This document shows, piece after piece, positions 18,000-24,729 of a DNA stretch of 37,760 nt. Numbering within the stretch: the first letter of the stretch is position 1; every line of letters begins with the position of its first letter. Below the pieces are notes generated by a model. It was not told the DNA's origin. It did not search any database and saw only the letters and a list, made by a program, of their open reading frames with translations. This DNA comes from a virus: positions 1-37,760 of IMG/VR virus record IMGVR_UViG_3300030106_005660, one strand, 5' to 3'. A program made the position numbers and the translations under genes.

Positions 18000-18629
18000 T
18001 TAACTTGTTTTAATTATTAAAGGTACTTTATATATTGTTTTATCAAAATATTGATTGCTAGGAGGAGTAACAGATACTTCATGAAACTCTACATTATCAA
18101 AACCAAGATCAGTATCTAACCCGTTCCAATATGTTATTTTACAACCTACATTAGCATATCTATCTATAAGCGTTTTAAAAGCTTCTTTATGAGGATCTGC
18201 ATAAGTGTCTTGTAATATAGCATCGTATTTACCATATTGTTTATTAACATCAACCCAATTACCCTCTATTATTTTTACATTTTTAGTAAAACCATCAACA
18301 GGTGTTGCAGCCCACTCTTTTAATTTAGGTATTATATCTTTATGACACTCAACTATTGTATGTGAAGCTGGTTTTTTAGCCTGTATAGCATCTGACAGTA
18401 TTCCCATGCCAAAGCCTAGTTCAAGCACATTATCACCTTCGTTTACACATAGATCAGCCATTTTTTGCATTATAGGCTGTTCCCATGCCATCATAACCTC
18501 AAAAGTTTGATTTGTTTCACCTGTTAGAGTTTCACCTTCATAAACCCAGTATATACCATTATCATCAAAAGTTAAATCTGCGTTTAAAAAAGCTGTATTA
18601 AAATCATTATAATCTTTAGGTTGTCCCAT
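18000..18629 (-). CDS. SAM-dependent methyltransferase, arginine/guanidino type-like, 209 aa
   Basis: Class I methyltransferase: motif I is [15 protein letters not shown] at residues 68-82 (the E-x-G-x-G-x-G loop that binds S-adenosylmethionine), followed by [18 protein letters not shown] at 90-107 with an acidic residue expected to hold the ribose, and [12 protein letters not shown] at the position of motif IV. The combination ELGFGMG plus TIVECH is typical of the guanidinoacetate N-methyltransferase/RMT2 group, which acts on guanidino or protein arginine groups. It overlaps the collagen gene by 14 nt, so it is made with the fibre. Substrate unknown: protein modification of a virion component and small-molecule methylation are both possible. 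Confidence 0.75.
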
Positions 18630-21600
18630 CGCAATTACAATTTTTGTTGTTAATTATTTCTTTTAATTCTTTTATTGCATTTATCAATAAAGGTATTAAT
18701 TTATCATATTTAACAGCCATGTACTCAGAACTTATTGGTGCTTCTGTTATTACTTCTGGTAATATTTCGTTAACTTCTTGAGCTATAACACCAACCATTC
18801 TTTCATTATTATTGTATCCTAGTTCTTTTGCTTTTTCATTTTCATAGAAATAATAACCATTTATTTTATCTATTAACTCTAAAGCATTTTCTATTTTACC
18901 ATCAATTGTTTTTAATCTAGCATCTGAATAAAAAGCTGTAATTTCATTTGTTGCTCTAATCTCACCAGTAGTTCCTGATGCATTTGTACCAACACCTAAA
19001 CTATCGAATCTTACATCATTACTAGTATTAAGTGATTGGTTAGCACTTGGACCGGTAGGACCTTGTGGACCTGTACCACCACTACCACCTGTAGAACCTG
19101 TTGGTCCTTGTGGGCCTGTGCCACCTGTACCTCCACCTGGGCCTGTAGGTCCTTGCGAACCTGTACCTCCACCTGGGCCTGAAGGACCTTGTGATCCTTG
19201 TGGACCTGTTGGACCTGCTGGACCTGTACTACCTGGCGAACCTTGATCACCATCATCACCTTTTTGACCAATACTACCTTGTGATCCTGGAGGGCCTGAA
19301 CCACCTGGCGAACCTGTACCACCCGTTGTACCTTGTGGACCTGAACCACCTGGTGAACCTGTGCCTCCTGTAGGACCTTGAGGACCTGTACCACCTGGTG
19401 AACCATTACTACCTGATGGACCTTGTGATCCTGTACCTCCACCTGGGCCTGTAGGTCCTTGTGAACCTGTACCACCACCTGGGCCTGTAGGTCCTTGCGA
19501 ACCTGTACCACCACCTGGGCCTGTTGGACCTTGACTACCTGTACCACCTGTACCTCCTGTTGATCCTTGAGAACCTGTTGGACCTGTTGGACCTGTTGGA
19601 CCTGTTGGACCTGTAGGACCAGTGTTACCTGTAGGACCTGTACTACCTGTAGTTCCTGTACCACCTTGAACACCAGCTGGGCCTGTAGGACCAGTAGGAC
19701 CTGTACCACCACCAGCACCCGTACTACCTTGTGATCCAGTATTACCAGTTGGACCTGTAGGACCAGTGTTACCTGTAGGACCTGTATCACCATCATCACC
19801 TTTTACACCTTGTGGACCTGTAGAACCTGTAGTACCCTGACCACCTGTAGAACCTGTAGGACCAGTAGAACCTGTAGTACCTTGACCACCTGTTGGACCT
19901 GTAGGACCTGTGTTACCTATATTACCTTGTATACCCTGTGGGCCACCTGGTCCAGTTGGACCTTGTGAACCAGTTGGTCCTGTTGGTCCTGTATTACCTG
20001 TAGAACCTTGTGATCCTGTGCTACCTGTATTTCCTGTTGGACCTTGACTACCTGTACCACCAGTGTTACCTGTTGGTCCTTGAGAACCTGTTGGTCCAGT
20101 ATTACCTTGATTACCTTGTATACCTTGTGGTCCAGTTGAACCTTGACTACCTGTTGAACCACCTGGTCCAGTTGTACCTTGTGGTCCAGTACCTCCAGTA
20201 TTACCTGTTGGTCCTTGAGATCCAGTACCTCCAGTACCTCCTGTAGAACCTTGTGAACCTGTTGGACCTGTTGGGCCTGTAGGTCCTGTAGGTCCTGTAC
20301 TACCAGTAGTACCTGTTGTACCTTGAGAACCTGTAGAACCAGTATTACCGGTGCTACCTTGAGAACCTGTTGGTCCCGTTGGTCCAGTATTACCTATATT
20401 ACCTTGTGGGCCAACGTCACCATCATCACCTTTGACACCTTGAGGACCAGTACTACCTTGCGAACCAGTACCACCTGTGCTACCTGTACCACCTTGAGAA
20501 CCTGTAGTTCCTGTGCTACCTTGTACACCTCCTAAACCTTGGTTACCTGTAGGTCCTTGACTACCTGTATTACCTGTAGATCCTTGAGAACCTGTAGCTC
20601 CTTGAGCACCTCCTAAACCAGTGTTTCCAGTTGGACCTTGAGATCCAGTTGATCCCGTACCACCTGTAGATCCTTGAGAACCTGTACTACCAGTATTACC
20701 TGTAGGACCTTGACTTCCTGTGCTACCAGTATTACCTGTAGGGCCTTGACCACCTGTTGGGCCTGTAGGTCCTGTTGGTCCTGTATTACCTATATTACCT
20801 TGATTACCTGTGGGTCCTTGTGAACCTGTAGGTCCTGTACCACCAGTACCACCAGTACTACCTTGTATACCTTGTATACCTTGTGGACCAGTACCACCTG
20901 TATCACCAGTACCACCTGTAGGACCTTGTGGTCCTGTTGGACCTGTAGGACCTGTACCACCAGTACTACCTTGTGAACCAGTAATTCCCGTGCCACCAGT
21001 TGGACCTTGAGAGCCTAAACTACCAGTAAGACCAAATGTTATATATACTTGACTACCGTTTGTAAAGCTACTTGCTGTACCACTACCATTAGATAATTCT
21101 ATAGTTCTATATGAACCATTATCTGTTATTTCTGTAATAAAGTAATCATAAAATGTAGCAGCATTAGATTTATTAGATATTCTTACATAAGCTTTAGGAT
21201 CAGATAAATTACCATCAAGTACCCCTAATACTGTTTGTAAACTATTACTATTTTTATCGGTTTCACTTATATACATTTCCGATGCAAAAGCATAGTTTGT
21301 AGAATTAATTCTTATATCACCGCTACCTGGATCACTATCTGTTGTAGAAGTTTCCCAATCATATAAATAGCTTAATACAGCATTACCTTTTGGACCTGTT
21401 GGACCTGTTGGACCTGTTATACTATCACCTTGTGGACCTGTTGGACCTTGACCACCTAATACACCAGAAATACCTTGTGAACCTGTAGTTCCTGTACTAC
21501 CTTGCGAACCTGTTGGACCTGTTGGGCCAGTATTACCAGTAGCTCCTTGCGAACCTGCTGGTCCAGTGTTTCCTGTTGCACCAGTACTACCTTGCGAACC

Positions 21601-24600: not shown

Positions 24601-24729
24601 ACCTTGAACATGAGTAGCAATATCATTTAAGGTGTAATTTTTAGTTTTGCCAGTAGCAGAATCTGTACCTAATACTTTATCAGCACCTGAAATAGTAGTA
24701 TCTACGTTATATTTTGTAATTCTAGGCAT
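18616..24729 (-). CDS. Giant collagen-like fibre with C-terminal S74 chaperone domain, 2037 aa
   Basis: After a 45-residue N-terminal anchor ([20 protein letters not shown]) nearly all of the protein is Gly-X-Y triplets, three long tracts of roughly residues 46-710, 835-1110 and 1235-1895, about 530 triplets in all. X/Y positions are mainly Pro, Thr, Ser, Gln, Ala and Asn; six KGDDGD clusters carry almost all charge. Two globular inserts at about 713-830 and 1113-1233 resemble each other (YKY/YLYDW, DPGSG/DPGAG, VRISNKS-like, ITF-G-TG). The C-terminus is a Peptidase_S74 intramolecular chaperone ([10 protein letters not shown] near 1935, then [16 protein letters not shown] and [19 protein letters not shown]), which trimerises fibres and cuts itself off. 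It is the receptor-binding or spacer fibre of the virion. ATG at 24729 has no Shine-Dalgarno. Confidence 0.9.
19045..24591 (-). repeat. Gly-X-Y coding repeat tract (9-bp periodic)
   Basis: The DNA of the collagen tracts is a degenerate repeat built from 9- and 18-bp units reading Gly-Pro/Ala-Thr-Gly-Ser-Gln. Codon choice varies enough to keep copies non-identical, yet many 15-20 bp stretches recur. The two globular inserts (about 22240-22590 and 21030-21390) are the only breaks. Such a tract is prone to recombination, length variation and assembly collapse. Confidence 0.85.

Follow-up and report, generated by a model that had tools for sequence, protein, structure and literature searches.

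In Clostridioides difficile the glycosyltransferase SgtA, which also carries TPR repeats and is encoded immediately upstream of bclA3, adds O-linked N-acetylglucosamine (GlcNAc) to threonines in the GPT collagen repeats of the spore protein BclA3 (PMC7157674). The locus described here, a gene for a 2037-residue collagen-like fibre in the virus record IMGVR_UViG_3300030106_005660, resembles that system in combining a Thr-rich collagen with an upstream gene for a TPR-glycosyltransferase. It differs from it in several respects: BclA3 is a spore protein, its glycosyltransferase is of another type, uses uridine diphosphate-GlcNAc and has no GH130-type partner, and sgtA is directly adjacent to its target gene, whereas here two genes lie between the TPR-WavE gene and the fibre, so that adjacency is not direct. 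For the phage the sugar is a proposal. The stretch analysed, hereafter the window, is a linear IMG/VR contig of 37,760 bases with no N. The cassette of sugar-enzyme genes beside its fibre gene is the new part of the locus and its least ordinary feature.

Among phages, EPclA and EPclB of enterohaemorrhagic Escherichia coli prophages share with the window's fibre a Gly-X-Y rod, N-terminal attachment and C-terminal trimerising domains (PMC3368898). Their triple helix is proven experimentally, over about 111 collagen residues compared with about 1600 here; their end domains are different, the recombinant protein is sugar-free, and no such cassette has been reported for them. Mimivirus encodes collagens together with collagen-modifying enzymes, among them a collagen glycosyltransferase (PMC9546862), as the present phage may do, but it is a giant virus of a eukaryote, with hydroxylysine-linked sugars and unrelated enzymes. 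Literature searches confined to open-licence papers turned up no phage collagen-glycosylation system.

A GH130-type gene statistically linked to collagen

One gene of the cassette encodes a protein of 336 amino acids (aa) whose AlphaFold model has a propeller fold (predicted local distance difference test score, pLDDT, 86.9). The leading Foldseek matches in the PDB (best E 6.8e-8) are GH130 mannoside phosphorylases and GT108 GDP-mannose mannosyltransferases, including Leishmania MPT, at an identity of just 10-14% to the solved GH130/GT108 structures. A family profile run against PDB sequences gave chance antibody matches only, and the fold search was required. Since the match in fold comes without a Pfam match, we name the protein GH130-type by fold and do not file it as a member of the family. 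Residues N33, N47, E121-D122 and D315 do not vary among 32 relatives, and the spacing of 193 between E121-D122 and D315 is close to the 189 between Glu91-Asp92 and Asp281, the mannose-site residues of Teth514_1788 (PMC4264767), the comparison being one of spacing in sequence. The predicted fold and the spacing of Glu-Asp and Asp are thus the points of likeness to the GH130 and GT108 enzymes, and a mannose isomerase gene adjoins here; the difference is that the phage family co-occurs with collagen. Two named phages have relatives, annotated 'beta-mannosyltransferase' and 'MGP protein'; in Synechococcus phage DSL-LC02, which is one of these phages, the GH130-type gene adjoins a collagen-like gene.

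This co-occurrence was counted in 80 loci taken from about 380 IMG/VR matches to the 336-aa protein. A collagen open reading frame (ORF) is present in 43 of them, in every case on the same strand and upstream, with none downstream, and it often ends 35-46 bp ahead of the GH130-type gene. The proportion is 27/32 where the locus extends 6 kb or more upstream; by clusters at 80% identity it is 19/23, or 17/21 when the window and locus L115, both found via collagen, are excluded. Control loci of the terL lineage with at least 5 kb upstream have collagen in only 1/22 cases (Fisher p = 7e-8 compared with the GH130-type clusters), and a second control, a fibre-linked methyltransferase, has it in 0/9 further loci. 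A matched comparison (terL at least 83% identical) was made in another phage lineage than the window's, on whole contigs because the collagen lay beyond 10-kb flanks. Collagen was found in 3/3 contigs with the gene present and room upstream, compared with 0/12 where the gene is absent (p ~0.002); the figures are 2/2 and 0/12 (p ~0.01) when the contig that supplied the query is excluded. Collagens near a GH130-type gene also have more Thr at Y, with a median of 0.335 compared with 0.09 (n=38 vs 14; p = 5e-6, kinship ignored).

The cassette genes vary in their make-up. In many relatives, L182, L188, L190 and L204 among them, the GH130-type domain is fused with the TPR-FkbM-like protein in a single ORF of ~740 aa, and the end of the TPR partner is either WavE or an FkbM-like methyltransferase, i.e. 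the catalytic part is swapped. In one aquatic phage (L145), genes for a GT25-family glycosyltransferase and a 2-oxoglutarate (2OG)-Fe(II) oxygenase (7266-9994) lie between the collagen ORF (2-2605) and the GH130-type gene; members of both superfamilies process animal collagen. The linkage of sugar genes to collagen across many unrelated phages suggests that these phages coat their own collagen with sugar.

The fibre: architecture, reach and anchor

The fibre is built of three collagen tracts separated by two globular knobs, with a short N-terminal segment and an S74 region at its C-terminus (Table 1). An earlier note on this DNA had put the repeat at about 530 Gly-X-Y triplets in three hardly broken tracts, and our count of 534 (223, 90 and 221) agrees; the total is 538 in all runs of at least three, counting a 4-triplet stretch at residues 1106-1117. 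The longest G-x-x run, of 223, compares with a maximum of 12 over 2000 shuffles of the same protein, and a chance origin of the repeat is thereby excluded. The match to Pfam Collagen (PF01391) has E 9e-146 and 474 bits (cut-off 27.2) and that to Peptidase_S74 (PF13884), at residues 1935-1993, E 2.5e-12 and 47.3 bits (cut-off 22), which bears out the earlier description, that of a collagen-like fibre of a phage ending in an S74 chaperone. The same note did not mention the two homologous knobs (~115 aa each, 33% identical), the 41-residue N-terminal anchor or the upstream sugar-enzyme cassette, and it named no strand; the gene is on the minus strand.

The tracts have Ser (32%), Pro (25%) and Gly (13%) at X and Thr (54%), Gln (27%) and little Pro (1%) at Y, with few charges, Lys, Arg and Glu being nearly absent. 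Distant matches of the S74 region are 6f45, a long tail fibre of a phage, and 7dc3, a structure of MYRF, and the SDARLK motif of the fibre aligns with SDRRIK of 6f45. Ser1935 and Lys1940 are presumably a self-cleavage pair, as in endosialidase S74 domains. Trimerisation and S74 self-cleavage of the fibre are in this way predicted from its sequence. A tblastn search of phages with the whole fibre matched mainly S74 domains, the collagen being masked by the low-complexity filter.

The modelled knob has no fold match in the PDB at E<=0.001, and at the same threshold it matches 47 viral predicted structures, many of them labelled as proteins with collagen triple helix repeats, from giant viruses and uncultured Caudovirales. 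When the knob served as query in IMG/VR, 20/20 of the loci found had a collagen ORF, and all 36 knob-bearing ORFs among the analysed loci are collagenous. Fibres that combine knobs with collagen thus form a class that is widespread but has been little studied. Larger phage collagens occur in aquatic contigs, with 3112 aa and 653 triplets in L128, 2696 aa in L119 and 2445 aa in L126, and taken by itself the collagen fibre is a large example of a class common in aquatic phages rather than an exception. Tandem giant collagen genes, a few bases apart, are present in L120 (1793-8572 and 8576-14770), L121, L122 and L126.

How far could such a fibre extend? With 1602 residues and a rise of 0.286-0.29 nm the contour is 458-465 nm, or about 191, 77 and 190 nm for the successive rods. 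The ~450 nm previously given, at 0.29 nm per residue, is therefore sound as a contour, and this rise has been measured by electron microscopy on a phage-encoded collagen, in which 111 residues span ~30 nm (PMC3368898). It does not hold as a reach: the root-mean-square end-to-end distance of a worm-like chain would be 95, 132, 183, 219 and 258 nm at persistence lengths of 10, 20, 40, 60 and 90 nm, and the knobs probably add hinges or bending, so that ~100-260 nm is expected for a semiflexible hinged rod. The claim that the fibre is longer than most is correct when it is set against virions, the largest overall size quoted for a jumbo phage being 0.45 um, about equal to the 460 nm contour (PMC12619734), but not when it is set against other phage collagens, which reach 3112 aa. 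Removal of S74 before Ser1935 would leave 39 residues past the collagen and thus no large head at the tip, implying that binding would sit in the knobs, the rod or the decoration of the rod.

The N-terminal motif ties the fibre to its lineage. Residues 1-41 also start non-collagen fibres of the same lineage (L002, L003, L007, L132-L142), as judged with a hidden Markov model (HMM), and the same model firmly matches gp087 of Cellulophaga phage phi40:1 (E 7.5e-7). In phi40:1 a second protein, the S74-ended gp085, has a similar N-terminus with a weak HMM score (E 0.07); both genes lie upstream of terL, and the record marks both products as virion proteins by tandem mass spectrometry (MS/MS). The slot of the fibre gene is syntenic with that of gp085, at the same place upstream of terL. 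The window's fibre and gp085, the latter from a Callevirus, are thus alike in S74 end, genomic site and N-terminal motif, and gp085 differs in its length of 976 aa and in having no collagen noted. A tblastn search of phages with the anchor found MW202828 alone; the phi40:1 match came only from the HMM. Given the lineage-wide anchor and the phi40:1 MS/MS data, the simplest interpretation is a fibre of the virion whose shaft has been exchanged, and a location on the virion is supported by analogy with this related phage.

Neighbouring genes and phage lineage

Table 1. Features of the fibre gene and of the genes flanking it, by position in the window
Feature	Position	Strand	Basis
BACON-domain protein, 202 aa, paired with methyltransferase	17390..17998	-	PF13004 E 3.6e-6
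S-adenosylmethionine methyltransferase-like protein, 209 aa, 14-bp overlap with fibre gene	18000..18629	-	weak Pfam and NCBIfam matches
Collagen-like S74 fibre gene, 2037 aa, 182 kDa	18616..24729	-	ATG start
N-terminal segment, residues 1-47 (1-41, virion-anchor motif)	24589..24729	-	HMM matches to lineage fibres
Collagen tract 1, residues 48-716, 223 Gly-X-Y triplets	22582..24588	-	triplet count
Globular knob 1, residues 717-833	22231..22581	-	AlphaFold pLDDT 93.8
Collagen tract 2, residues 834-1103, 90 triplets	21421..22230	-	triplet count
Globular knob 2, residues 1118-1232	21034..21378	-	homology to knob 1
Collagen tract 3, residues 1233-1895, 221 triplets	19045..21033	-	triplet count
C-terminal region with S74 intramolecular chaperone, residues 1896-2037	18619..19044	-	Pfam PF13884
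SDARLK motif, Ser1935 and Lys1940, predicted Ser-Lys self-cleavage pair	18910..18927	-	motif position
142-aa protein, phrog_34507, no assigned function	24737..25165	-	PHROG match
352-aa protein, N-terminal sugar-nucleotidyltransferase-like (by eye), C-terminal HAD phosphatase	25162..26220	-	weak HAD matches
TPR and WavE glycosyltransferase, 418 aa	26230..27486	-	WavE E 1e-5
GH130/GT108-fold enzyme, 336 aa, overlaps TPR-WavE gene	27471..28481	-	model fold
Mannose-6-phosphate isomerase cupin	28483..28869	-	PF01050 E 2e-28; TIGR01479 C-terminal part E 7.6e-31

The genes on this strand follow the order isomerase, 336-aa enzyme, TPR-WavE, nucleotidyltransferase/HAD, 142-aa protein, fibre, methyltransferase and BACON. 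Homologues of the 352-aa protein come after the GH130-like and WavE genes in six other loci (L112, L157, L162, L165, L169 and L219). In an alignment of the 418-aa protein the TPR families match other members, and WavE matches 6/22. When the WavE-type gene was used for a pattern scan, no relative came back, though homologues sit in GH130-type loci, which marks a limit of the pattern method. The isomerase ORF has a GTG start and overlaps a holin-like gene (28811-29221) by 59 bp; an inner ATG may be the true start. The G+C content of the cassette (24737-28869) is 26-30%, compared with 32% in the structural genes, which fits a recent acquisition.

On the far side of the fibre, the methyltransferase/BACON pair was ruled out as collagen-specific. 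The BACON partner is present in 9/9 further methyltransferase loci, in L225-L230 the methyltransferase neighbours giant fibres that lack collagen, and the pair accompanies giant fibres of any kind. No prolyl hydroxylase was seen next to the fibre in the window. In three other loci (L145, L165 and L237) the cassette has 2OG-Fe(II) oxygenases in its vicinity. Contigs L237-L240, which are filed in Rhodobacteraceae/Bacteroidetes bins, contain phage structural genes and several radical-SAM-like genes, and look like mis-binned phage contigs.

The source is a marine bacteriophage, kin of phages that infect Flavobacteriia, and its terminase, portal, capsid and muzzle-like genes point to podoviruses of that class. 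Terminase matches by tblastn are to MW202828 (62%) and the Flavobacterium elemo phages (Elemovirus, 46%); phages of Cellulophaga, Tenacibaculum and Maribacter match both terminase and muzzle. Crassvirales-type muzzle families are found at 1572-5879 (PF25731, 41.6 bits; PF25729, 38.5 bits; cut-off 27). Relatives of the terminase are encoded in at least 600 IMG/VR stretches, and just 1/80 of the fetched terminase-relative loci has a collagen ORF (at least 15 triplets); the fibre slot of the close relatives inspected is occupied by other giant ORFs of 1298-1850 aa. The window also encodes, at 32134-33943 and 16243-16851, GroEL, GroES and a second GroES-like protein (phrog_13932), the last immediately ahead of terL, and a 146-aa gene product with no assigned function (31694-32134), which is up to 84% identical in relatives, a conservation far above that of its neighbours.

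The target of the sugar cassette

What, then, would this cassette act on? We propose that the collagen protein is a homotrimeric fibre on the virion of a podovirus, docked there by its N-terminal motif, in which three collagen rods parted by two globular knobs would form a long semiflexible tether. The S74 domain would trimerise the chains and start the C-terminal zipping of a hydroxyproline-free triple helix, and would then probably be cut off before Ser1935. The isomerase, the GH130/GT108-type enzyme, the TPR-WavE protein and the nucleotidyltransferase/HAD protein would most likely make a mannose-containing glycan and attach it to Thr (Y) or Ser (X) of the fibre, where it would serve to stabilise, hydrate or mask a sparsely charged rod in which Pro takes 25% of X and Thr 54% of Y. 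As a whole, this anchored trimeric collagen tether, glycosylated by upstream genes, is our best explanation and a slightly better than even prospect; phage-encoded collagen glycosylation in itself seems to us about evenly poised. More tentatively, and with a probability that we place somewhat below even, several unrelated aquatic lineages may possess dedicated collagen-glycosylation systems, in which a GH130/GT108-type enzyme and a TPR-guided transferase (WavE glycosyltransferase or FkbM-like), sometimes with GT25 and 2OG-Fe(II) oxygenases as in L145, act on Thr/Ser of giant collagen fibres. Viruses of prokaryotes would in that case have a counterpart of the collagen processing of animals.

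A number of observations weigh against such a role for the cassette, and some of them favour an ordinary long collagen whose neighbouring sugar genes alter the host lipopolysaccharide (LPS) or capsule against superinfection, the two lying side by side in a shared host-range island. Phage glycosyltransferases are usually taken as modifiers of LPS or DNA (PMC7029224, PMC10202952), and the WavE family is named after LPS synthesis. The link with collagen is one-way, many collagens being without the GH130-TPR pair: no GH130-type gene lies in the fetched flanks of 16/20 collagen loci found with the knob and 15/15 found with S74. The pair itself occurs in structural clusters free of collagen in the fetched DNA (L196, L205, L211, L212, L218, L237-L240), and the cassette may act more broadly on virion proteins rich in Ser, Thr and Gly. 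The window's 336-aa protein has no match to Pfam Glyco_hydro_130 (the best of 30 relatives reaches E 0.004), and the 418-aa protein falls just under the WavE cut-off of 27 with 25.2-25.5 bits; in most relatives the TPR partner is an FkbM-like methyltransferase instead of WavE. In addition, the cassette is upstream of the fibre in the window and downstream in the other phages, and the Thr-at-Y statistic takes no account of relatedness. Island linkage alone, however, predicts proximity to any fibre, yet the methyltransferase/BACON and terL controls have collagen almost nowhere, and even the collagen-free GH130-TPR pairs still sit amid virion structural genes. Modification of the host surface is for these reasons a possible but rather doubtful account of the sugar genes, and glycosylation of the fibre is the reading that we prefer.

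The length of the fibre could be an artefact of assembly, the real protein being much shorter and its repeats chimeric or expanded in the contig: the source is a linear metagenomic contig, and the contigs of two close relatives, L084 and L085, both break off inside the collagen. These contigs, which are independent, nevertheless confirm at 94% identity that collagen and S74 are joined. Exact DNA repeats within the fibre gene extend to 39 bp and never reach 40, which is well under short-read length and makes short-read mis-assembly unlikely, as are collapse or expansion of the repeat to judge from the sequence. Serine in the gene is encoded by both TCN and AGY codons, the reading frame is unbroken across 2037 codons, and long, closely similar collagens occur in related phages from independent metagenomes (L117, L119 and L128). 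An artefact is thus very improbable. It is improbable too, if less so, that the tracts form no continuous triple helix at host temperature and act through unfolded segments as an entropic, mucin-like tether far shorter than the contour. Low Pro at both positions, Gly at 13% of X, stretches rich in GGT and GST, and the near absence of Lys, Arg and Glu would fit such a state, but Gly at every third position, unbroken through each of the three tracts, argues for selection for a triple helix, and an unglycosylated phage collagen made in E. coli forms trimers and withstands heat better than the fibrillar collagens of vertebrates (PMC3368898).

If the proposal of a glycosylated collagen tether is correct, phages would possess a post-translational collagen chemistry of their own, and this would provide one answer to the question of how long collagens fold without hydroxyproline. 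Virion glycosylation would also gain a further kind, in addition to that of the mycobacteriophage capsid (PMC11256854), and there would be small, testable enzyme sets for the production of glycosylated collagen. Finally, some of the 'auxiliary' glycan genes of aquatic phages would then have the virion, rather than the host, as their target.

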